Shown in pieces: positions 1-10,001 of a DNA stretch of 10,001 bases. Made by a program: the position numbers and the translations under genes. Origin of the DNA: Sphingomonadales bacterium (GTDB lineage Bacteria > Pseudomonadota > Alphaproteobacteria > Sphingomonadales > Sphingomonadaceae); assembly GCA_027489295.1 (NCBI GenBank), contig JAIYAA010000186.1, forward strand, positions 1-10,001, given 5' to 3'. Under the pieces are notes generated by a model, which was not told where the DNA came from, made no database searches, and saw only the letters and a program-made list of their open reading frames with translations. Position 1 is the first letter of the stretch; each line of letters begins with the position of its first letter.

Positions 1-2418
1 CACGAGCTGATCGACGCCAGCGCGATCCCCGACTGGGCCTTCGTGCTGCCCAAGGCGCTGGCCGTCACGCTGGTGCTGTTCTCCACGCTGATCGTCAGCG
101 TGATCGGCGGCATGGTGATGCAGCTGGTCCACGGCTATAGCGATTTCGAGCTGGGCAAGTATCTGCTCTGGTACGTGCTGCCGGAAACCGTCGACTATAC
201 CCTGCTCGCCGTGCTGGCGGTGTTCCTCCAGGCGCTCAGCCCGCACAAGTTCGTCGGCTGGGGTCTGATGGTGGTCTATATCATCGGCCGGGTGACGTTG
301 GGCAATCTCGGCTTCGGCGACGTGCTGTACAATTATGCGCAGGGCCCGGGCGTGCCGCTGTCCGACATGAACGGCCAGGGCAATTTCTGGATCGGGTCCT
401 GGTGGCTGCGGCTCTACTGGTCGTCGTTCGCGGTGCTGCTGCTGGTGCTGGCCCATGGCCTGTGGCGCCGCGGCACCGAGACGCGGCTGCTCCCGCGCCT
501 CAAGCGCCTGCCGCGCAAGCTGGCCGGCGTCGCGGGGATGATCGGGGGGGCGGCGCTGGCGGTGTTCGTTGCGACCGGCGTGTGGGTCTACACCAACACC
601 CATGTCTGGAACGTCTATCGCACGCCGATCAGCGACGAGCGCGAGCTTGCCGACTATGAGAAGACGCTGCTGCCGTTCGAGGGCGTACCGCAGCCCTCGG
701 TCGCCGCGGTGCGTGTCGCGGTGGACATCCAGCCGCATCAGCCGGGGCTGACCGCAGCCGGGCAGATGACGCTGGTCAACCGTACCGGCAAGCCGCTGGA
801 TGCGATCCACGTCCATCTGGGCGATCGGAAGACCAGGCTCCTGTCGGTAGCGATCCCCGGCGCCACCGTCGCCAAGGATTTCCCGCGCTTCCAGTACCGC
901 ATCTACCGGCTCGCCACGCCGCTGGCGCCGGGAGCGGCGACCACGCTCGACTTCCGCACCGAACGGCGCCAGCGCGGCTTCGCCAACAGCGGCAACGATA
1001 CCCGCGTCGTTGCCAACGGCACCTTCGTCAACAACAGCGAGTTCGTGCCGACGCTGGGCATCGACCGGTCCGGCATGCTGCAGGATCGCGCCAAGCGCCG
1101 CAAATACGGGCTGCCGTCCGAACTCCGCCCGCCGAAGCTGGAGGATCTCGCCGGGACGCGCTTCAGCGCCTTCCATGTCGACTGGATCAAGACCGACATC
1201 ACCGTCTCGACCGATGCCGACCAGACGCCGATCGCGCCGGGCGACAAGGTCGCCGATCGCAGCGAAGCCGGGCGGCGTACCGCGCGCTTCGTCACTTCGG
1301 TGCCGATCCTCAATTTCTATTCGGTGCAGTCGGCACGCTATCGGGAGAAGCATCTGCAGCACAACGGCATCGACCTGGCGGTCTATTACGACCCGCAGCA
1401 CGGCGCCAATGTCGATCGGATGCTCGCCGCCTTCCGCCACGGGCTCGATACGTACCAGCCGGCGTTCGGCCCCTATCAGTTCCGCCAGGCGCGGATCATC
1501 GAATTCCCGGATTACGCCCAGTTCGCACAGGCGTTCGCGGGCACCATGCCCTATTCGGAAGGGATCGGCTTCATCGCCGACCTCTCCGACAAGGAGAAGA
1601 TCGATTACGTCACCTATGTCGCGGCGCACGAGCTGGGGCACCAATGGTGGGCGCACCAGGTGATCCCGTCCGACAACCAGGGCGCGACCATGGGCGTGGA
1701 GACGCTGGCGCAATATTCGGCGCTGATGGTGATGGAGCACCTCTACGGCCGCGACCAGATCCGCCGCTTCCTCAAATACGAGCTCGATCGCTACCTCCGC
1801 AGCCGCGGCGGCGAGGTGATCGAGGAATTGCCGCTCGCCCGGGTCGAGAACCAGCAGTACATCCATTACCGCAAGGGCAGCCTCGCCATGTACCGGCTGA
1901 AGGACGAGCTGGGCGAGGCGCGGGTCAATGCGGCGCTCAAGCGCTACGACGCGAAGTTCCGCTTCCAGGGCCCGCCCTATCCCCGCAGCCTGGACCTGAT
2001 CGCCGAATTCCGCCTCGGCGCCAGCCCGGCCGATAATGCGCTGATCACCGATCTGTTCGAGCGCATCACCCTCTATGACATCAAGACCCGCTCGGCCGTG
2101 GTGACCAAGCTGCCCGATGGCCGCTGGCGCACCACGCTGACGATCGAGGCGCACAAGCTCTACGCCGACGGGCGCGGCAAGGAAACCGAGGCACCGATGG
2201 CCGAACAGGCCGAATTCGGCGCGTTCGCGGCGATGCCGGGGCGCGGTGCCTTCGCCGCGAAGGACGTGCTGACGCTCAAGCGCCTACCGATCCGCACCGG
2301 CACGCAGGTAATCACGCTGGAGACCAAGGCAAAGCCGGCCTTTGCGGGCGCCGATCCCTATAATGTCAGGATCGATCGCAATTCGGACGACAATGTCATC
2401 GGCGTGACGGCCGGCTGA
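1..2418 (+). CDS. ABC-2-type permease / M1-family zinc aminopeptidase fusion, 5'-partial
   Basis: The reading frame is open from base 1 to the TGA at 2416-2418, giving 805 visible residues; the GTG at 43 is internal and not the start. Residues 1-200 hold about five hydrophobic helices (roughly 19-43, 55-79, 84-100, 133-155, 176-198), the end of an ABC-2-like permease region. The rest resembles an M1 peptidase: HELGH zinc motif at 543-547, third zinc ligand probably Glu567, and Tyr623 in YRKG, fitting the M1 catalytic tyrosine. PYSEGIG around 517-523 probably replaces the usual GxMEN, with Glu520 equivalent to its Glu. Spacing from HExxH to Glu is 19 residues rather than 18, which I recall as normal for these fusions. 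Such proteins usually follow an ABC ATPase gene, so one is expected to the left. Substrate and transport direction are unknown. Being next to a Pls-like synthetase, it may process or export that product, but this is inference. The family call is firm. Confidence 0.9.
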   Translation, partial: HELIDASAIPDWAFVLPKALAVTLVLFSTLIVSVIGGMVMQLVHGYSDFELGKYLLWYVLPETVDYTLLAVLAVFLQALSPHKFVGWGLMVVYIIGRVTLGNLGFGDVLYNYAQGPGVPLSDMNGQGNFWIGSWWLRLYWSSFAVLLLVLAHGLWRRGTETRLLPRLKRLPRKLAGVAGMIGGAALAVFVATGVWVYTNTHVWNVYRTPISDERELADYEKTLLPFEGVPQPSVAAVRVAVDIQPHQPGLTAAGQMTLVNRTGKPLDAIHVHLGDRKTRLLSVAIPGATVAKDFPRFQYRIYRLATPLAPGAATTLDFRTERRQRGFANSGNDTRVVANGTFVNNSEFVPTLGIDRSGMLQDRAKRRKYGLPSELRPPKLEDLAGTRFSAFHVDWIKTDITVSTDADQTPIAPGDKVADRSEAGRRTARFVTSVPILNFYSVQSARYREKHLQHNGIDLAVYYDPQHGANVDRMLAAFRHGLDTYQPAFGPYQFRQARIIEFPDYAQFAQAFAGTMPYSEGIGFIADLSDKEKIDYVTYVAAHELGHQWWAHQVIPSDNQGATMGVETLAQYSALMVMEHLYGRDQIRRFLKYELDRYLRSRGGEVIEELPLARVENQQYIHYRKGSLAMYRLKDELGEARVNAALKRYDAKFRFQGPPYPRSLDLIAEFRLGASPADNALITDLFERITLYDIKTRSAVVTKLPDGRWRTTLTIEAHKLYADGRGKETEAPMAEQAEFGAFAAMPGRGAFAAKDVLTLKRLPIRTGTQVITLETKAKPAFAGADPYNVRIDRNSDDNVIGVTAG

Positions 2419-2429
2419 ACATTTCCGCT

Positions 2430-2494
2430 GCCGGGTGCTTTCGGCAAACGTTAGTCCGTTTCCAGACGGACGATCGGAGCGTAAGCACCCGGCA
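2430..2494 (+). promoter_or_regulatory. Nested inverted repeat in the leader of the Pls-like synthetase gene
   Basis: Twelve bases at 2429-2440 (TGCCGGGTGCTT) are perfectly complementary to 2483-2494 (AAGCACCCGGCA). The last base of the right arm is the A of the synthetase ATG. The 42-base interval contains a second perfect hairpin, GTCCGT at 2454-2459 with ACGGAC at 2466-2471 and a 6-base loop. The likely ribosome-binding GGAG (2476-2479) lies between the inner hairpin and the right outer arm. As RNA this would fold into a stem-on-stem structure touching the start codon, suggesting translational control. As DNA, the arms could be operator half-sites. The 75-base gap means the upstream gene may or may not be co-transcribed. 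No U-run follows the outer stem, so a classical terminator is unlikely. The structure is seen directly; the role is inferred. Confidence 0.55.
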
Positions 2495-5400
2495 TGAGCC
2501 CAAGGATTGACGACCCCGCGAGCGAACCCGTGCAGACGGTGTTCGCCTCGATCGCGCCCTCCCCCGCCCTTCGCGAGGAGGAACCCTATGCGCGCGACGA
2601 GCTGCTGCACGAGATCTTCGAATCCGCGTGCCGGCAGCATGGCTGGCGCGGCGCGGTCCGGCTGCTCGGCGACGATCCGGAGAGCAGCCGCCGCACCGCG
2701 CTCAGCTATGTCGAGCTGCGCGACCGGGCGCTGCGCTTCGCCCGCCAGCTGCGCGACATGGGCGTGCAGCGCGGCGACCGCGTCGTCCTCTGCCTGCCGC
2801 GCGGGCTCGATCAATATATGGCGATCCTCGGCGTGCTCTGGGCCGGCGCCTGCTATGTGCCGGTCGACTGGACCTATCCGCAGGACCGCATCGACTTCAT
2901 CGTCGAGGATAGCGGCGCGGTGCTCGTCGTCACCGAAAGCGCGCGCGCCGGGGAAATGACGGGCCGCGTGCTCGCGGTGGACACCGCGCTGGGCGACCTC
3001 GCCGCGCGCGAGGCGCTGCCGCTCGGTCGCGCCGAGACCGGCAGCACGCCCGACGACCTCGCCTATATCATCTACACCTCGGGCACGACCGGCCGGCCCA
3101 AGGGAGTGATGATCACCCACCGCAACGCCGCCCATCTGGTCCGCTCGGAATCCGCGATCCTGGCGCTGGAGACCGAGGACAGGGTGTTCGGCGGCTTCAG
3201 CCTCGCCTTCGACATGTCGGTGGAGACGATGTGGAGCGCCTTCTTCGTCGGCGCCGAGCTGCTCGTCGCGGGCGAGGCGCTGGCCAAGGCCGGGCCGGAC
3301 ATGGCGGAGGTGCTCGCCGCCGAGCAGGTGACGATCTGGCACGTCGTGCCGTCGCTGCTGACCCTGGTCGAGACGGAGATGCCGGCGCTGCGCCTGCTCA
3401 ACCTGGGCGGCGAGGCGTGCCCGCCCGATCTGGTCACGCGCTGGGCGCGGCCGGGCCTGCGCATCCTCAACACCTATGGCCCGACCGAGACGACGGTGAC
3501 CGCGACCTGGACCGAAGTCCAGCCCGGCCGCCGCGTTACCATCGGCCGGCCGCTGCCAGGCTATACGGCCTGGATCGTCGACGAGCAGCTCTGGCCGGTG
3601 CCAGCCGGTGCCGAGGGCGAACTGGTCCTCGGCGGTCCCGGGGTCGGTGCGGGCTATGTCAATCGCCCGGACCTCACCGCCGAGAAGTTCGTCCACACCC
3701 CGTTCCACGGGCCGGACGGCCAGCCGGCGCTGATCTATCGCTCGGGCGACCTCGTCCGGCTCGATGCGGTGGGCGACATCGACTTTATCGGCCGGATCGA
3801 CACGCAGGTGAAGATCCGCGGCTTCCGCGTCGAGCTCGGCGAGATCGAGGCGGTGATCGCCGACGATCCCGCAATCGCGCAGGCGGTCGTCCACCTGTTC
3901 CGCGACGACGATGGCGCCGAATTCCTCGCGGCATTCCTCGTCGCGCGCGGCGGTGCGGCGATCGACCTCGACGCAGTGCGCACGCGCGTACGCGATCGAC
4001 TGCCCAACTACATGCGGCCGGCCGGCTATCAGCTGCTCGACGCGCTTCCCACCCTCCCCGCCTCGGGCAAGGTCGATCGCAAGGCGCTGCAGCGCCCCGC
4101 GCTCGCCCCGGCCAGCGAGCGCGAGACCGTCGCGCCCGCCACCCCGCTGGAGGTGCAGCTGCACGCCGTGTGGGCGGAGGCGTTCGCGCCGCAGAAGGTG
4201 TCGGTGACCGACGATCTGTTCGAGGATCTGGGGGGCCACTCGCTCAAGGCGGCGCGCCTCGTCTCGGCGATCCGCAAGACGCCGGGCCTTGCCGGCATCT
4301 CGATCCAGGACCTCTACGCCGCCCCCACCATCCGCACGCTCGCCGAGCGGCTGAAGGACAAGGTCGTCGCCGACACCGCAGCCGAACAGCCCTTCCACCA
4401 CACGCCGGCCGCGACCCGCTGGCTTTGCTGGATCGCCCAGACGATCGCGCTGGTACCGATCTACGCGATCGCCGGGCTGCAATGGTTTTTCCCCTATGTC
4501 GCCTATGTGCATCTGTCGGGCGACATCGACCGGGTACCGGCGCTGATGGTCAGTGGCCTCAGCTTTCTCGCCATTCCGCCGCTGGCGATGCTCGCCTCGA
4601 TCCTGGTCAAATGGCTGGTGATCGGCCGCTACCGCGCCGGTGACTATCCGCTCTGGGGCAGCTATTATTTCCGCTGGTGGTTCGTCCGTCGCTTCTCCGA
4701 GGTGATCGCCACCCCCTATCTTGCCGGCACGCCGATGATCCGTGCCTATTACCGGCTGATGGGCGCCAAGGTCGGCAAGCGCGCCTTTATCGGCCGCGGC
4801 AACATCGATGCGGCGGACCTGGTATCGATCGGCGACGGCGCCGTAGTCAGCGACTATGCGATGCTGGCGACCACCTCGGTCGAGCGCGGGCTGCTGCGGA
4901 TCGGGACGGCGACGATCCGGCCCGGCGCGTTCGTCGGCTCGATGGGGGTGGTCGGGCGCAACTGCACCATCGGTGAAGGCGCGGCGCTGGAGGATCTGTC
5001 CGCGCTGCCGATGGGCACTACCATCCCAGCCGGCGAACGCTGGAGCGGATCGCCCGCGCGTCCCATCGCGACCGGCATCCCCCGCGAGACCGACGATGAA
5101 GCCGGCCCGCTCCGCCGCCTGCTCACCGGCATCGCGCTGACCATCGGCGCGCTGATCCTGCCGATCGTCGCGATCCTGCCGATTGCGCCGGGGCTGGTGT
5201 GGATGATCGAGATCGACTGGAACACCGAAAGCTACAGCTATCTGCTGATCTCGCCGATGCTCGCGGTCACCTATGTGCTGCTGATGTGCGTGCTGACGGT
5301 CGCGGCCAAGCGGCTGTTCCTCGGCCGGGTGAAGCCGGGCCGCTATTCGATCCACAGCTGGTTCTATGTCCGCTTCTGGTTCGTCCAGCAGGTGAACGAC

Positions 5401-6516
5401 CTCGCGCTGCGGCTGCTCCACCCGATCTACGCGACGCTCTACGTGGTGCCCTGGTACCGGGCGCTGGGCGTGAAGGTCGGGCGGCGGGCCGAGATCTCCA
5501 CCGCGGCGGCGATCGTCCCCGATCTGGTCGAGGTCGGGCCGGAGAGCTTCATCGCCGACGCGGTGCTGTTCGGTGCTGCCCGGGTGGAGCCCGGCGCGAT
5601 CCGGCTGGCGCATACCAAGATCGGCCGCCGCTCGTTCATCGGCAACTCCGCGCTGCTGCCGGCCGGCGCCACGATCGGCGACGGCGTGCTGATCGGCGTG
5701 CTCTCCAAGCCGCCCGAGGACGGCAGCGCCGCCCAGCCCGACGGCACCTGGTTCGGCTCGCCGCCGATCTCGCTCCCGGTCCGCCAGACGGTCGGCCTGT
5801 TCGACGAAGGCGCGCGGTTCAACCCCAGCAAGCGGCTGATCGCCACCCGCCTTTCGATCGAGGCGATCCGGGTGACGCTGTCGCTCACCCTGTTCGTCGC
5901 GTTCTTCAGCCTGCTGCTCTCGATCGTCAGCGAACTCGATGACCTGCGCAACGGCGGGCATCTGATCGTCTACGCCTTCCCGTTCCTCTATGTCGGCTTC
6001 GCGCTGGCCTGCGGGATGTCGGTCGTGCTGCTGAAGTGGCTGGTGATGGGGCGGTACAAGCCCACCACCCAGCCGTTGTGGAGCACCTTCGTCTGGCGGA
6101 CCGAGCTGGTGACGGCGACCTACGAGAATCTCGCCGTGCCCAACCTGCTCGAGCCCTTGCGCGGCACGCCGTGGCTACCGGCCTATCTGCGCCTTCTCGG
6201 CTGCAAGATCGGCAAGCGCTGCTATATCGACACCACCGACGTGACCGAGCAGGATCTGGTGGAGATCGGCGACGACGTCGCGCTCAACGACTTTGCCGGC
6301 CTCCAGACGCATTTGTTCGAGGATCGGGTGATGAAGGTCAGCGGCGTGAAGGTCGGCGACCGGGCGACGCTCGGCTCCTATGCGATCGTGCTGTACGATG
6401 CCGAGATCGGCGAGGACGTGCAGCTGGGCGATCTGTCGGTGGTGATGAAGGGCGAGACCCTGCCTGCGGGGACGTCATGGGAAGGCTCGCCGGCACAGCT
6501 CGCGCAGGAGGCGTGA
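2494..6516 (+). CDS. Pls-like membrane-bound NRPS: adenylation, carrier, three (2 TM + LbH-like) modules
   Basis: This 1340-residue protein probably makes an amino-acid homopolymer or oligomer at the inner membrane. The adenylation domain (about 33-535) has YTSGTTGRPKG at 194-204, FDMS with Asp240, NTYGPTE at 326-332, YRSGD at 415-419, GRIDTQVKIRG from 433 and Lys526 in ASGKVDRK. The carrier domain (about 550-622) has DLGGHSL, with Ser583 as the phosphopantetheine site. Then come three repeats of a TM pair plus soluble domain: TMs near 643-672/681-710, 880-905/916-943 and 1122-1146/1157-1185. Each soluble part opens with GR(Y/V), carries hexapeptide-like IG/VG repeats and closes with WxGSP (Trp850, Trp1086, Trp1329). 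No HHxxxDG condensation motif or thioesterase is visible. Architecture and length match S. albulus Pls (about 1319 residues). The ATG start has GGAG 14 bases upstream, a long spacing, and the next in-frame start (GTG 2530) has nothing better. The gene overlaps a downstream phosphopantetheinyl transferase. The monomer is uncertain. Confidence 0.93.
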   Translation: MSPRIDDPASEPVQTVFASIAPSPALREEEPYARDELLHEIFESACRQHGWRGAVRLLGDDPESSRRTALSYVELRDRALRFARQLRDMGVQRGDRVVLCLPRGLDQYMAILGVLWAGACYVPVDWTYPQDRIDFIVEDSGAVLVVTESARAGEMTGRVLAVDTALGDLAAREALPLGRAETGSTPDDLAYIIYTSGTTGRPKGVMITHRNAAHLVRSESAILALETEDRVFGGFSLAFDMSVETMWSAFFVGAELLVAGEALAKAGPDMAEVLAAEQVTIWHVVPSLLTLVETEMPALRLLNLGGEACPPDLVTRWARPGLRILNTYGPTETTVTATWTEVQPGRRVTIGRPLPGYTAWIVDEQLWPVPAGAEGELVLGGPGVGAGYVNRPDLTAEKFVHTPFHGPDGQPALIYRSGDLVRLDAVGDIDFIGRIDTQVKIRGFRVELGEIEAVIADDPAIAQAVVHLFRDDDGAEFLAAFLVARGGAAIDLDAVRTRVRDRLPNYMRPAGYQLLDALPTLPASGKVDRKALQRPALAPASERETVAPATPLEVQLHAVWAEAFAPQKVSVTDDLFEDLGGHSLKAARLVSAIRKTPGLAGISIQDLYAAPTIRTLAERLKDKVVADTAAEQPFHHTPAATRWLCWIAQTIALVPIYAIAGLQWFFPYVAYVHLSGDIDRVPALMVSGLSFLAIPPLAMLASILVKWLVIGRYRAGDYPLWGSYYFRWWFVRRFSEVIATPYLAGTPMIRAYYRLMGAKVGKRAFIGRGNIDAADLVSIGDGAVVSDYAMLATTSVERGLLRIGTATIRPGAFVGSMGVVGRNCTIGEGAALEDLSALPMGTTIPAGERWSGSPARPIATGIPRETDDEAGPLRRLLTGIALTIGALILPIVAILPIAPGLVWMIEIDWNTESYSYLLISPMLAVTYVLLMCVLTVAAKRLFLGRVKPGRYSIHSWFYVRFWFVQQVNDLALRLLHPIYATLYVVPWYRALGVKVGRRAEISTAAAIVPDLVEVGPESFIADAVLFGAARVEPGAIRLAHTKIGRRSFIGNSALLPAGATIGDGVLIGVLSKPPEDGSAAQPDGTWFGSPPISLPVRQTVGLFDEGARFNPSKRLIATRLSIEAIRVTLSLTLFVAFFSLLLSIVSELDDLRNGGHLIVYAFPFLYVGFALACGMSVVLLKWLVMGRYKPTTQPLWSTFVWRTELVTATYENLAVPNLLEPLRGTPWLPAYLRLLGCKIGKRCYIDTTDVTEQDLVEIGDDVALNDFAGLQTHLFEDRVMKVSGVKVGDRATLGSYAIVLYDAEIGEDVQLGDLSVVMKGETLPAGTSWEGSPAQLAQEA

Positions 6517-7157
6517 CCGGGCCGGTCTGGCTGTCCGGCCCGGTTTCGGACTGGCCGGCGGCGGCGGATCGGCCGATCGCGTGGCACATCCGGCTCGACG
6601 ATCCCGCGGTGGCGCGGCTTCATGTGTCCGCTGCCGTCCGCGCCGAGGATCTGCGCGACCTGGCGAACAGGCCCCAGGCCGAACACCGGCTCCGCCGGCG
6701 GCAGCTGACGCGCCTGCTGCTTGCGCGCATCGCCGACCTGCATCCGGACCAGATCGCGTTCACGCGCTCGGCGCTCGGCGCGCCGCTGCTGGCCCTGCCC
6801 GAAGGCTGGCATGTCAGCGTGGCGGGGCGCGGGGTGGAGGCGCTGATCGGGGTTTCGCGCGCCGCGATCGGCGTCGATCTCGAGGAGTTGCTGGATGCCC
6901 CCCTCCCCGACGACGCGATAACGGCGGGCGAGCGAGGCACCCTCGCCGCCGCCGGTCCGCGGGAATGGACCGCCTGCTGGGTCGCCAAGGAGGCGCATGC
7001 CAAGCGTCTCGGTATCGCCTCGGCTGTGGACCCGGCCGCGATCCATACCGAGGCCCTGAGCACCGATCATTGGGTCGCCACGACCGCCGAGGGCGACTCC
7101 CGCTGTATCCTTCGGCAGTCGGGCTCGCTGCTGCTGGGCGTGGCGGTGGCGGACTGA
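6513..7157 (+). CDS. 4'-phosphopantetheinyl transferase, Sfp type
   Basis: It transfers the phosphopantetheine arm of CoA to the carrier serine of an NRPS, acyl carrier or similar protein. The 214-residue product, close to the usual Sfp-family length, has both signatures. IGVDLE puts the Mg-binding acidic residues at Asp122 and Glu124, and WVAKEAHAK places Lys159, Glu160 and Lys164 as in the WxxKEAxxK motif. The chosen start is the GTG at 6513-6515, which overlaps the synthetase TGA in GTGA. AGGAGG at 6506-6511 is only one base away, so initiation probably relies on translational coupling. The frame is open further upstream, but that part is antiparallel to domain logic: it overlaps the conserved third module of the synthetase in another frame. 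A start at GTG 6622 would cost 36 residues. The natural partner is Ser583 of the preceding synthetase; action on other carrier proteins in the cell is possible. Confidence 0.9.
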   Translation: MTGPVWLSGPVSDWPAAADRPIAWHIRLDDPAVARLHVSAAVRAEDLRDLANRPQAEHRLRRRQLTRLLLARIADLHPDQIAFTRSALGAPLLALPEGWHVSVAGRGVEALIGVSRAAIGVDLEELLDAPLPDDAITAGERGTLAAAGPREWTACWVAKEAHAKRLGIASAVDPAAIHTEALSTDHWVATTAEGDSRCILRQSGSLLLGVAVAD

Positions 7158-7175: not shown

Positions 7176-8582
7176 TCAGACCGTTGGCTGCCAGCCGCCG
7201 CCGAGCGCCCGGAACAGGTTGACCTGCGCCTCGGCGATTGCGGCATCCGCCGTGGCCAGCGCCGCCTGCGCGTCGGCAAAGGTGCGTTCGGCGTCGAGCA
7301 AGTCGAGCGAGTTGATGTCGCCCTCGGTCTGGCGCGCGCGGGCGATGCGGACGACGGCCTCGGCTTCGTCATGCGCAGCCTGCAGCGCGGTGCGCCGTTC
7401 GAGCGCGCGGCCATAGGCGGAAAGCGCCGTCTCGGTCTCCTGCAACGCGGTCAGCACGGTGCCGTCGAACGTCGCGAGCGCGGCGCGACTGTCCGCCTCC
7501 GCCGCGGCGATGCGGGCGCGGGCGGGTGCCGGGTTCACCGTCCAGTTGATCAGCCCGCCGACCAGCCAGCGCAGCGGCCCCGCGCCGAAGATATTGCCGA
7601 AGTCATTTCCCGTGGATCCCCCCGAGGCGCCGAGCGAAATGCGCGGATAAAGGTCGGCCGTCGCCACGCCGATCCGCGCCGTCGAAGCGGCGAGCCGGCG
7701 TTCGGCCGCGCGCACGTCCGGCCGCCTTGCGAGCAGCGCGGCGCCGTCACCGACCGGGATCGGCTGGTCTAGCCGCAGTGTCGTGTGCCGCTCGCGCGCT
7801 TCGGGCGGTAGCTCGGCGGGGGTCTTGCCGATCAGCGTCGCGAGGCGGAACAGCGCCGCATCACGCTGGGCAGCAAGCGCGGGCACGTCGGCCTGGCGCT
7901 GATTGCGCAGCGCGGCGATGCGGGCGACGTCGAGCCGGGTCGCGAGCCCCACGCCGCGGCGGCGCTGCGTGAGGTCGATCGACTGATCGAGAAGTGCCAC
8001 GATATGCTCGGCCACGGTCAGCCGCTCGGCCGAGGAGACCGCATCGGCATAGGCGCGCGCGGTATCCGCCGCGACGATCACGCGGACCGCGTCCCCGTCG
8101 GCCTCCGCGGCGGCGACATCGCCGCGGGCGGCCTCGACGTTGCGCGACAGGCGGCCGAACAGATCGACCTCGTAGGAAACGCTGAGGCCGGCATCGACCT
8201 GCCAATCCTCCTGCGCGGTGCCGATCGGACGCTGCCCGGCCGGCACGCGGCCGTAATTGGCCCCGGCGCTCGCGGTGCCCTGCGGCAGCCGGTTGGCGCT
8301 GGCACCGCGCAACGTGGCGCGGGCGCGCTCGATGCGGGCAACGGCGACGCGAACATCGGCGTTGGCGGCGAGCGCCTCTGTGACGAGCCGGTCGAGCACC
8401 GGGTCGTTGTAGAGCCGCCACCAGCCCGCCTGCACCGGCGCGGTGTTGACCGCCGGGCTGGTGGAGAGGAACGCCCCCGAGGCCGTCTGCGGATGGGCGG
8501 GTGCGGTATAGTTCGGGCCGGCGGCGCAGGCGGAAAGCGCCAGCGCCGAAACCGCGGCCATCATGGAAGCCATGCGTTGCAT
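7176..8582 (-). CDS. RND efflux outer-membrane lipoprotein, NodT/OprM type
   Basis: This is the outer-membrane channel of a tripartite efflux pump, a TolC-like trimer spanning outer membrane and periplasm. The 468-residue protein starts with a short hydrophobic signal peptide ending in the lipobox LSAC (Cys19), followed by AAGPNYTAP, the typical mature start of this family. Near residue 50 comes WWRLYNDPVLDRLV and then a helical Ala/Arg/Glu-rich stretch of the first OEP repeat. The second repeat contains RRPDVRAAERRL and RIGVATADLYPRISLG at about 285-315, a hallmark of NodT-type factors. Length is normal. The ATG at 8582 is preceded by AGGAG (CTCCT at 8590-8594 on the plus strand) with a 7-base spacer; Met4 is a weaker alternative. 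It follows an RND permease on the same strand after 105 bases, so it is probably the last gene of that operon. Drug range cannot be read from the sequence. Confidence 0.94.
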   Translation of the reverse strand: MQRMASMMAAVSALALSACAAGPNYTAPAHPQTASGAFLSTSPAVNTAPVQAGWWRLYNDPVLDRLVTEALAANADVRVAVARIERARATLRGASANRLPQGTASAGANYGRVPAGQRPIGTAQEDWQVDAGLSVSYEVDLFGRLSRNVEAARGDVAAAEADGDAVRVIVAADTARAYADAVSSAERLTVAEHIVALLDQSIDLTQRRRGVGLATRLDVARIAALRNQRQADVPALAAQRDAALFRLATLIGKTPAELPPEARERHTTLRLDQPIPVGDGAALLARRPDVRAAERRLAASTARIGVATADLYPRISLGASGGSTGNDFGNIFGAGPLRWLVGGLINWTVNPAPARARIAAAEADSRAALATFDGTVLTALQETETALSAYGRALERRTALQAAHDEAEAVVRIARARQTEGDINSLDLLDAERTFADAQAALATADAAIAEAQVNLFRALGGGWQPTV

Positions 8583-8589
8583 GCGAAAT

Positions 8590-8594
8590 CTCCT
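8590..8594 (-). promoter_or_regulatory. Ribosome binding site of the outer-membrane efflux gene
   Basis: The minus strand reads AGGAG followed by seven bases and ATG, a near-ideal Shine-Dalgarno. It supports the start at 8582 rather than Met4. Confidence 0.7.
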
Positions 8595-8617
8595 GAATTG
8601 TGAAGGCGCGCCCTCCC

Positions 8618-8661
8618 CTCTTCCGTCATCCCAGCTTCCGCCGGAATGACGGCTGGAAGAG
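8618..8661. repeat. REP-like imperfect palindrome between the RND permease and the outer-membrane factor
   Basis: CCGTCAT at 8623-8629 pairs with ATGACGG at 8646-8652. The stem continues inward with two mismatches (CC/GG and GC/GC pairs), and CTCTT at 8618-8622 pairs with AAGAG at 8657-8661 outside. The pattern, GTCATCC...GGAATGAC with CTTCCGCC inside, resembles short palindromic intergenic repeats common in proteobacterial genomes. In translation these give spurious peptides like VIPAEAGMT, which appears here on the minus strand. In this operon position it could act as an mRNA-stabilising or partially terminating hairpin. Copy number in the genome cannot be seen from one window. Confidence 0.6.
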
Positions 8662-8687
8662 AGGAAACGGCGGGCCTTCCCCTGTGC

Positions 8688-10001
8688 TTACTCGGCCGGC
8701 TGGAGCTGGTGGTGATCGCCCCCCTGCCCGCGCCGCCGGGCAAGCCGCGCACCCAGCGCACGGCACACCACGTAGAAGGTCGGCGTGAACAAGAGGCCGA
8801 AGCCGGTGACGCCCATCATCCCGAAGAACACCGCCGTCCCCAATGCCTGGCGGAGCTCGGACCCCGCACCGCTCGCGATCAGCAGCGGCACCGCGCCGAG
8901 GATGAAGGCGAAGCTGGTCATCAGGATCGGCCGCAGCCGATCCTGCGCCGCCCGCACCGCGGCTTCCACCGGCGACAGGCCGTCGCGCACTTCGGCCTGG
9001 TGGGCGAACTCGACCACGAGGATCGCGTTCTTGGCGGCGAGCGCGATCAGCACCACGAGCCCGATCTGCGTCAGCACATTGTTGTCCATGCCGCGCAGGT
9101 TCACGCCCGCCATGGCCGCCAGCAGACACATCGGCACGATCAGGATGATCGCCAGCGGCAGCGTCAGGCTCTCATATTGCGCCGCCAGCACCAGGAAGAC
9201 GAACAGCACCGCCAGCGCGAACACCAGGCCCGCCGTGCTTCCCGCCATCTTTTGCTGATAGGCGATGCCGGTCCACTCGCCCGCATAGCCGGCGGGCAGG
9301 TCGGCGGCGATCTTCTCCATCGCGTCGAGCGAGGCGCCCGAGCTGTAGCCCGGCGCGGTATCGCCATCGACTTCCACCGCCGGGAACAGGTTGTAGCGCG
9401 TCACGCGATACGGGCCCGTCTTGTTCTCGAAGGTCGCGACCGATCCGATCGGCACCATGCCGCCGGCGTCCGAGCGCGTCTTGAGGTTGGCGATGTCGGC
9501 CTCGGTCGCCCGGAAGGGCGCGTCGGCCTGCGCGGTCACCCGGTAGGTGCGGCCGAGCATGTTGAAGTCGTTCACGAAGGCCGAGCCGAGATAGACGTTG
9601 AGCGCTTCGAACACCCGCTCGGGCGGCACGCCCAGCATCTCGGCCTTGCGGCGGTCGATATCCGCGAAGACGCGCGGCGTCGCGGTGTTGAAGAAGGTGT
9701 AGACCTGGGCGAGCCCCGGGGTCTTGTTGGCCTGGCCGATCAGGCCGAAGGACGTGGCGCCCAGTGCCTGATAGCCATGCTCGGCGCGATCCTCGACCAT
9801 CAGGCGGTAGCCGCCGGCCGAACCGATGCCCTGGATGAGCGGCGGCGGGACCACGAGCAGCATCGCCTCGTTGATGTCGGCGGTGCGCTTGCGCGCCTCG
9901 GCCATGATGCCGGCGATGTTGACGCCCAGCTTCTTGCGCTCCTCGAAGCTCTGCAGCGGGACATAGGCGGCGGCGCTGTTCGGGGCGAGCGTCTGCGACG
10001 G
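8688..10001 (-). CDS. RND multidrug efflux permease, HAE1 family (MexF/OqxB-like), partial at the right edge
   Basis: This is the inner-membrane proton-driven pump of a tripartite efflux system. The frame is open from base 10001 to the TAA at 8688-8690, giving 437 residues, the C-terminal two-fifths of a protein usually near 1050. The ATG at 9905 is internal. Residues 1-250 are the second periplasmic porter/docking region, including FVNDFNMLGRTYRV and YAGEWTGIAYQ, typical of MexF/OqxB-type pumps. TM8-TM12 follow at about 257-275, 280-300, 311-332, 361-379 and 388-412. TM10 has ALAAKNAILVVEFA, with Lys324 matching the AcrB Lys940 of the proton relay. RLRPILMTSFAFILG is the conserved lead-in to TM11. 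The Asp pair of TM4 lies outside the window. The protein ends in a short Arg/His/Gln-rich tail. The outer-membrane factor lies downstream; an adaptor (membrane fusion protein) gene is expected upstream, beyond the edge. Confidence 0.95.
   Translation of the reverse strand, partial: PSQTLAPNSAAAYVPLQSFEERKKLGVNIAGIMAEARKRTADINEAMLLVVPPPLIQGIGSAGGYRLMVEDRAEHGYQALGATSFGLIGQANKTPGLAQVYTFFNTATPRVFADIDRRKAEMLGVPPERVFEALNVYLGSAFVNDFNMLGRTYRVTAQADAPFRATEADIANLKTRSDAGGMVPIGSVATFENKTGPYRVTRYNLFPAVEVDGDTAPGYSSGASLDAMEKIAADLPAGYAGEWTGIAYQQKMAGSTAGLVFALAVLFVFLVLAAQYESLTLPLAIILIVPMCLLAAMAGVNLRGMDNNVLTQIGLVVLIALAAKNAILVVEFAHQAEVRDGLSPVEAAVRAAQDRLRPILMTSFAFILGAVPLLIASGAGSELRQALGTAVFFGMMGVTGFGLLFTPTFYVVCRALGARLARRRGQGGDHHQLQPAE

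Follow-up and report, generated by a model that had tools for sequence, protein, structure and literature searches.

The question raised by this locus is what a large membrane-bound synthetase makes together with the product of the gene that overlaps its end. The locus lies in a stretch of 10,001 nucleotides from a Sphingomonadales bacterium (hereafter the window), and the features described below are on its plus strand unless otherwise stated. The open reading frame at 2494..6516, running from ATG to TGA, encodes a 1340-residue protein and is a full-length homopoly(amino acid) synthetase gene of the Pls/PosA family. Its closest relative among the matches listed is from Sphingomonas elodea (95%), in agreement with the alphaproteobacterial origin proposed in a preliminary description of this DNA, and of the 120 homologues listed, 12 are sphingomonad entries that carry the source name "Pls/PosA family". 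TIGR02353 (NCBIfam) scored 856.1 bits (cut-off 423.1) over residues 648–1334, covering positions 2–695 of the 695-position profile. The score is about twice the curated cut-off and the match extends over the whole terminal domain, which supports the membership of the Pls/PosA family suggested earlier.

The adenylation core (residues 57–388, 2662..3657; PF00501, AMP-binding, 271.6 bits) is followed by an AMP-binding C-terminal subdomain (residues 450–520, 3841..4053; PF13193, AMP-binding_C) and a carrier domain (residues 556–620, 4159..4353; PF00550, PP-binding). The phosphopantetheine site of the carrier, Ser583 (codon 4240–4242), lies within the sequence DLGGHSL, and serine occupies the aligned position in 201 of 201 rows. 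This single adenylation domain with a serine-bearing carrier, together with a TIGR02353 score above the cut-off, is the combination that characterizes Pls/PosA (CHPA) enzymes. Pfam searches of the synthetase (E values up to 0.001) detected no condensation or thioesterase family, and gave a Hexapep match at 1040–1068 and an LbH match below the cut-off. The motifs HHxxxDG and GxSxG, typical of condensation and thioesterase domains, respectively, are also absent from the synthetase sequence. Hydropathy analysis, in which overlapping peaks were merged, yielded six transmembrane segments in three pairs (643–669 and 681–712, 873–909 and 913–946, 1120–1151 and 1154–1187); an extra peak at 1052–1071 falls inside a modeled β-helix.

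An AlphaFold2 model of residues 640–1340 (pLDDT 89.8, pTM 0.90) contains three β-helix units on six membrane helices. The predicted polymerizing domain (residues 648–1334, 4435..6495) would thus consist of three repeats of a transmembrane helix pair and a left-handed β-helix, namely, C1, C2, and C3, as indicated by TIGR02353, the model, and Foldseek/VIA; the nearest solved folds to the β-helix units are hexapeptide acetyltransferases (Foldseek/VIA). Pfam, hydropathy, and the model therefore bear out the architecture described previously, that is, a single adenylation domain, a carrier with Ser583, six transmembrane helices, and three soluble units with neither a condensation nor a thioesterase domain. 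Conservation across the rows points to the QTHLFEDR motif in C3 (residues 1271–1278, 6304..6327) as a candidate active site. H1273 is kept in all 200 rows that hold the terminal domain, across several pocket types, and among the 80 locus rows T1272, E1276, and R1278 are each invariant (80/80), with Q1271 and D1277 each found in 79. We found no residue named as catalytic for the terminal domain in the accessible text of the PosA paper (PMC10522769).

To assign a monomer, we compared the substrate pocket with that of PosA from Acinetobacter baumannii, using correspondences from the accessible text of PMC10522769 and from an Acinetobacter calcoaceticus protein aligned to PDB 8g95. Nine of the ten pocket positions (D240, M241, E244, H283, N303, G305, T327, V335, and T336) are encoded at 3211..3501 according to the alignment, and the tenth is K526. 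The resulting pocket, DMEHNGTVTK, is the same in all four Acinetobacter loci (L050, L051, L053, and L058), and it equals that of A. baumannii PosA (DMEHNGTVSK) at 9 of 10 positions. One of the four loci aligns to the PosA crystal chains 8g95/8g96 with a score of 886 bits. Asp217, Met218, Glu221, and Thr304 of PosA are matched in the window, and Ser313 is replaced by T336, as in the four Acinetobacter loci. The exact window pocket occurs in 136 of the 201 aligned rows, which include the window and 120 homologues picked for likeness to its terminal domain, and the serine form of PosA in 7. In the accessible text of the 2023 report, PosA is a proven δ-poly-L-ornithine synthetase of a Gram-negative bacterium, its in vitro product is poly-L-ornithine of 7–12 units joined by isopeptide links, and the exchange of Ser313 for Ala causes a 183-fold loss (PMC10522769). 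The same source assigns Met at pocket position 2 to the ornithine type, Ala to Lys enzymes, and Phe to PDAP enzymes (PMC10522769); the window has Met241 at this position and thus lacks the Ala of ε-poly-L-lysine synthetases. The pocket match to the Acinetobacter loci and PosA therefore predicts δ-poly-L-ornithine and not poly-lysine. The preliminary description had proposed a "cationic or other homopolymer" in a group where such products are little described; "cationic" agrees with the PosA-like L-ornithine pocket and the open "or other" is narrowed to this prediction, whereas the second statement was overstated, since this kind of system is known and δ-poly-L-ornithine from a Gram-negative bacterium was reported in 2023 (PMC10522769, accessible text).

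The overall similarity to the Acinetobacter proteins is low. The window synthetase shares 43 to 44% identity in the adenylation domain and 36 to 38% in the terminal domain with the two Acinetobacter loci measured; the values for the A. calcoaceticus orthologue are 42.8% and 35.7%, respectively. Members with a different pocket are at least as similar overall to the window synthetase as the Acinetobacter proteins are; for example, the adenylation domains of L040 (DAESIGTVIK) and L063 (DFEYLGTVTK) are 49% and 45% identical to that of the window. Trees were built from a locus set consisting of the best 80 of at least 582 confirmed stretches; the terminal-domain tree excluded L048, whose terminal domain is cut, and the adenylation-domain trees and AU tests used 57 rows, 23 of the 80 having been dropped as near-copies, gappy, or long. 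In both the terminal-domain and the adenylation-domain trees, the window clade was separate from the four Acinetobacter loci that served as stand-ins for PosA, which places the window synthetase outside the PosA clade so represented. Because the window lineage stands apart and the overall identity is low, pocket identity alone carries the substrate claim.

In the rooted adenylation-domain tree, the sphingomonad and Acinetobacter lineages lie within one 45-row clade with support of 96/84; in a quick unrooted tree, the same clade was supported at only 62. Holding these 45 rows together in the terminal domain was not rejected (p = 0.27), and a first AU test (p = 3e-53) had been unfair because rows nested inside both lineages were counted as outside. 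The adenylation-domain tree agrees with the terminal-domain tree and thus gives no sign of a domain swap. We therefore rejected a convergent origin or swapping of the ornithine pocket, and shared descent explains the two lineages more simply. There is one inconsistency: the terminal domain places the cyanobacterial locus L031 with the sphingomonads (support 83, not starred), a grouping that is rejected in the adenylation domain (p = 0.0009).

The second gene encodes an Sfp-type 4'-phosphopantetheinyl transferase (PPTase) at 6513..7157. It starts either at GTG 6513, with a 4-nt overlap with the synthetase gene, or at an in-frame ATG at 6477, with a 40-nt overlap. PF01648 matched the product at 26.1 bits, barely above the cut-off of 25; this weak match is strengthened by genomic linkage, and the protein contains GVDLE at 120 and WVAKEAHAK at 156, which we take to be the Sfp-type motifs (G-V-D-x-E and W-x-x-KEA). 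The PPTase adjoins the synthetase in 33 of the 35 rows of the alphaproteobacterial clade, including the window. Among 101 genomes of one sphingomonad genus, 15 have a synthetase above the cut-off, including the center genome, which was picked because it has one, and an ACPS-family match lies 276 to 381 bp downstream in 15 of 15. Two or more ACPS-family matches were found in all 15 synthetase-bearing genomes versus 20 of the remaining 86 (Fisher p = 1e-8, uncorrected for relatedness). These counts strongly back the overlapping transferase gene and the self-contained synthetase–PPTase cassette of the preliminary description, and this PPTase looks dedicated to its synthetase, whose carrier, judging from the linkage, it probably modifies. 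The two genes are fused into one open reading frame in L040, a distant relative. By contrast, the clade HMM did not detect an adjacent PPTase in 35 of 81 loci, including all four Acinetobacter loci; the family as a whole thus does not depend on the pairing. The counts of adjacent PPTases are lower bounds, because the HMM was trained on 18 rows that all belong to the 35-row alphaproteobacterial clade. In L019, L024, L035, and L039, rough gene calling missed the PPTase frame, and blastp finds a PPTase relative in each. We know of no PPTase pairing for Pls of Streptomyces albulus, which entered our comparison as the adenylation-domain chain 7wew among the matches listed.

From these sequence features, the product of the two-gene cassette is probably a short, positively charged homopolymer with isopeptide links, and δ-poly-L-ornithine is the most likely candidate. 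The adjacent PPTase would load phosphopantetheine onto Ser583, as its family and strong linkage suggest, and the adenylation domain, with a pocket nearly identical to that of PosA, would activate L-ornithine, D240 holding the α-amine and E244, T327, and T336 the δ-amine. The ornithyl thioester would then be passed to the membrane domain, in which the three β-helix units may form a pseudo-trimer, and joined, in repeated, template-free cycles, via a δ-amine supplied either by free ornithine or by the growing chain. From its conservation, H1273 with E1276/D1277 in C3 is the likely catalytic group. The chain would leave at the membrane, perhaps outward.

An enzyme of the same type that uses another monomer (L-Lys, Dab, Dap, or modified ornithine) or a mixture, and so makes a different isopeptide homopolymer, seems unlikely to us. 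The PosA crystal has L-Lys bound, and with the M218A exchange kcat/KM for Lys is almost ten times higher (PMC10522769, accessible text); as noted above, the window synthetase is overall no nearer to the Acinetobacter proteins than to members with other pockets; however, its Met at position 2 is of the ornithine type and its whole pocket is that of the four Acinetobacter loci. Even less probable is a terminal domain that acts as an aminoacyltransferase, adding one or a few ornithyl groups to a lipid, peptide, or saccharide. Although the β-helix units resemble acetyltransferases acting on single acceptors, the match spans the entire TIGR02353 domain, the constancy of H1273 extends over several pocket types, and polymerization was shown for PosA and Pls, the characterized members being polymerases according to the accessible text of PMC10522769.

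A different addition to the δ-poly-L-ornithine cassette concerns the gene upstream. The frame at 1..2418, cut by the window edge, encodes a membrane M1-family aminopeptidase (PF01433, HELGH), the C-terminal part of an ABC-2 permease–peptidase fusion; a full-length orthologue has 1194 residues, and its ABC2 permease matches score close to the cut-off. The zinc peptidase PLD presumably belongs to family M1 as well. In S. albulus, translation of pldII is coupled to that of pls, and pldII is required for self-protection; its product is described as an aminopeptidase, related to PLD, on the external side of the membrane (PMC9223678, accessible text). That the window gene, with its HELGH motif kept and ending 75 bp before the synthetase on the same strand, similarly exports or trims the polymer for self-protection is a rather doubtful possibility. 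In L025 and L035, a different M1 gene adjoins the synthetase gene in divergent orientation, but these two loci are near relatives of each other. Moreover, blastp found no relative of the window M1 protein in the 80 loci (flanks of 10 kb or to the contig end), and of 27 genomes with a synthetase, 7 have strong orthologues, which in no case adjoin the synthetase; one more, weak match (19 bits) is in G115. Chance adjacency is thus quite possible, and we rejected the peptidase as a generally conserved partner, as it is unlinked in relatives; it may be a strain-level partner of the cassette. In all, 67 upstream neighbors were found, and Pfam was run on 65 of them, all but those of L043 and L045; 15 of the 80 loci had no downstream open reading frame by the criteria used. 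The downstream RND efflux genes on the minus strand were rejected as polymer exporters, with blastp relatives of either gene in just 5 of 80 loci at 23 to 45% identity.

The TIGR02353 proteins of sphingomonads and Caulobacter are direct relatives, mostly 70 to 95% identical in the terminal domain, with no difference of substance from the window synthetase; in the publications consulted, we found no characterized member and no report of any polymer from a sphingomonad. The window gene would fall within the NAPAA (non-alpha poly-amino acid) clusters, which we take to be an antiSMASH class. The NAPAA reports, in their accessible text, concern ε-poly-L-lysine clusters in Gram-positive bacteria (PMC10628120, PMC10740426). 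PosA shares with the window synthetase the A–T–six-transmembrane–C1C2C3 architecture and the β-helix pseudo-trimer, which in the window is modeled, but posA is described in the accessible text as a single-gene operon without obvious co-transcribed neighbors (PMC10522769), whereas the window synthetase gene is overlapped by that of the PPTase. Pls of S. albulus has the same architecture, and pldII beside pls recalls the window M1 gene (PMC9223678, accessible text), but Pls differs in having Ala at pocket position 2 instead of Met (PMC10522769, accessible text).

The general "Pls/PosA family" annotation thus becomes a testable product in 15 of the 101 genomes of a sphingomonad genus, or about one-seventh, among them close relatives of the gellan-producing S. 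elodea. Owing to the linked PPTase, both genes could be co-expressed in E. coli as they stand, and the almost invariant QTHLFEDR motif is a direct target for a mutational test of the terminal domain. Caulobacterales relatives with changed pockets are candidates for further polymers. Speculatively, and with little probability as a whole, sphingomonads may hold a second δ-poly-L-ornithine synthetase lineage with a dedicated PPTase, whose polymer, exported or trimmed here by the adjacent ABC-2/M1 peptidase, would act on their own anionic exopolysaccharide or on fungal or bacterial neighbors.

The synthetase, a 1340-residue protein encoded on the forward strand at 2494-6516, was divided by Pfam into an adenylation (A) domain (residues 57-388; C-terminal subdomain, 450-520) and a carrier domain (556-620), in which Ser583 lies within DLGGHSL; no condensation or thioesterase domain was detected by Pfam. 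Hydropathy analysis indicated three pairs of transmembrane segments, six in total. Residues 648-1334 matched the NCBIfam model TIGR02353, "Pls/PosA family non-ribosomal peptide synthetase," from end to end with 856.1 bits, which is twice the curated cut-off. The search gave 4200 homologues within the E-value limit; among the best 120 of these, the top match was a Sphingomonas elodea protein (95% over the terminal domain; 95.0% for the A domain and 94.7% for the terminal domain in our own alignment), followed among named homologues by Sphingomonas and Novosphingobium proteins at 81-84%.

To predict the monomer, ten pocket positions were mapped using PMC10522769 and the PosA orthologue of Acinetobacter calcoaceticus aligned to PDB 8g95. 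The window pocket reads DMEHNGTVTK, which is identical in all four Acinetobacter loci, and the sole difference from A. baumannii PosA is Ser313, which is Thr in the window. Across 201 aligned proteins (81 loci including the window and 120 database proteins chosen for likeness to it; the pocket is incomplete or missing in five rows), 136 carry exactly this pocket and seven carry the Ser form. According to PMC10522769, Met at pocket position 2 corresponds to ornithine, Ala to lysine, and Phe to diaminopropionate. On the basis of the pocket match and the Met at position 2, the monomer is predicted to be L-ornithine and the product δ-poly-L-ornithine. However, overall similarity counts against this prediction: identity between the window synthetase and the A. 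calcoaceticus protein reaches only 42.8% in the A domain and 35.7% in the terminal domain, whereas the protein of L040, a Holophagaceae locus with a lysine-like pocket, is closer at 49.2% and 43.9%, respectively.

Trees of the terminal domain (80 rows) and the A domain (57 rows), neither of which contains A. baumannii PosA itself, both placed the window synthetase in a sphingomonad/Caulobacter clade, separate from another clade shared by the Acinetobacter, betaproteobacterial, and Verrucomicrobia proteins. The synthetase is therefore not a strict PosA orthologue, although it probably works like PosA. When A domains of NRPSs and acyl-CoA ligases from outside the family were used to root the A-domain tree, the Pls-family A domains formed a single clade (98/93), inside which the two ornithine lineages grouped together (96/84), so the ornithine pocket of the window synthetase may simply be inherited. 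Changed pockets occur in Caulobacterales loci of the alphaproteobacterial clade (DIESIGTVAK, DIEADGTVAK, and DVEANGTGSK) and in many database proteins numbered P0094 and higher (13 with DIECNGTVTK and six with DVEFNGTVAK). The changed-pocket loci L015, L018, and L069 are nested within the ornithine-type clade, and these relatives, together with P0094-P0120, are candidates for unknown polymers.

The phosphopantetheinyl transferase (PPTase) ORF, which starts at GTG 6513 or ATG 6477 and runs to 7157, overlaps the synthetase end in another frame. Its product scored 26.1 bits against PF01648 (cut-off 25) and holds the Sfp-type transferase motifs GVDLE and WVAKEAHAK. Downstream neighbours were scanned in the window and in 65 of the 80 listed loci, and 45 of these 66 matched PF01648 (E up to 0.01). 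Using an HMM built from 18 members of the alphaproteobacterial clade, we detected an adjacent PPTase in 46 of the 81 listed loci including the window, namely 33 of 35 clade rows versus 13 of 46 others; this HMM gave no match in the clade rows L022 and L069 or in any of the four Acinetobacter loci. According to PMC10522769, the gene for A. baumannii PosA forms an operon on its own.

Within one sphingomonad genus, TIGR02353 exceeded its cut-off in 15 of 101 genomes, including the centre genome, which was picked for having the synthetase. In all 15, a same-strand ACPS-family match lay 276-381 bp past the terminal-domain match; 14 had exactly two such matches, the synthetase-adjacent one and one other. 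At least two matches were found in 15/15 synthetase-positive genomes versus 20/86 others (Fisher p 1e-8, with related genomes not independent); in a smaller 11-genome set, six of nine alphaproteobacterial genomes had only two. In the L040 metagenome-assembled genome, synthetase and C-terminal PPTase are naturally fused in one 1675-residue ORF (L040:2273-7300; ACPS match at residues 1563-1649). Because of the adjacency and the genome counts, the PPTase looks like a dedicated partner of the synthetase, the fusion being the most direct support. A divergent terminal domain in one genome of this genus (G090:C132:16325-18403; 363 bits, below the cut-off) had no ACPS match on the same contig. A 385-kb Sphingomonas parapaucimobilis plasmid (NZ_CP155753.1) carries a 71% identical synthetase (374627-378598) with its PPTase; the cassette can thus be plasmid-borne, which fits its patchy presence in the genus.

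Upstream, a membrane M1 peptidase gene cut by the window edge ends 75 bp before the synthetase; a full-length orthologue (1194 residues) joins an ABC-2 permease and an M1 peptidase in one protein. The parallel with Streptomyces albulus is suggestive: PMC9223678 describes pldII, the major ε-poly-lysine-degrading enzyme, as an aminopeptidase on the outside of the cell membrane and reports that its translation is coupled to that of pls and that it is required for self-protection. Relatives of the window peptidase were absent from the flanks of the 80 listed loci, and strong orthologues occurred in seven of 27 synthetase-bearing genomes, none adjoining the synthetase; L025 and L035 carry a different M1 gene, divergent to the synthetase. 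As the pairing is not conserved, we hypothesize for the window strain only that the peptidase could be part of the synthetase system. Downstream, the reverse strand (7176-10001) encodes an outer-membrane factor of the NodT type and, C-terminal part only, an RND pump of the AcrB type; both genes are convergent with the cassette, and no link between them and the cassette was seen.

Other neighbours were seen elsewhere. A GNAT-type acetyltransferase gene (blastp family f9, six loci) directly follows the PPTase in several Sphingomonas loci, and both products tested (L010:14535-15080 and L035:14040-15089) matched PF00583/PF13673; this enzyme might acetylate the polymer for self-protection. An EAL-domain protein is encoded upstream in seven of 65 neighbours scanned (L039:4848-5681, L026:2628-3599, L048, L073, and others, assigned beyond L039 by blastp family f6), hinting at a c-di-GMP or biofilm link. 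Pfam found a Peptidase_M55 D-aminopeptidase in three downstream neighbours, which by blastp family f43 appear to belong to the cyanobacterial loci L031, L032, and L033, whose pockets are Phe-type.

Earlier publications describe the family and its architecture as well as the polymer and the fold model, and the poly-lysine clusters treated in PMC10628120 and PMC10740426 belong to Gram-positives. No report of a sphingomonad product of the Pls/PosA type was found in the literature, most subscription articles lying outside the search, and the available text of PMC10522769 contains no word beginning with Sphingo-. The present analysis adds a substrate prediction for the sphingomonad lineage, evidence for the PPTase as a dedicated partner, and a pointer to a possible catalytic motif, QTHLFEDR, in the terminal domain.
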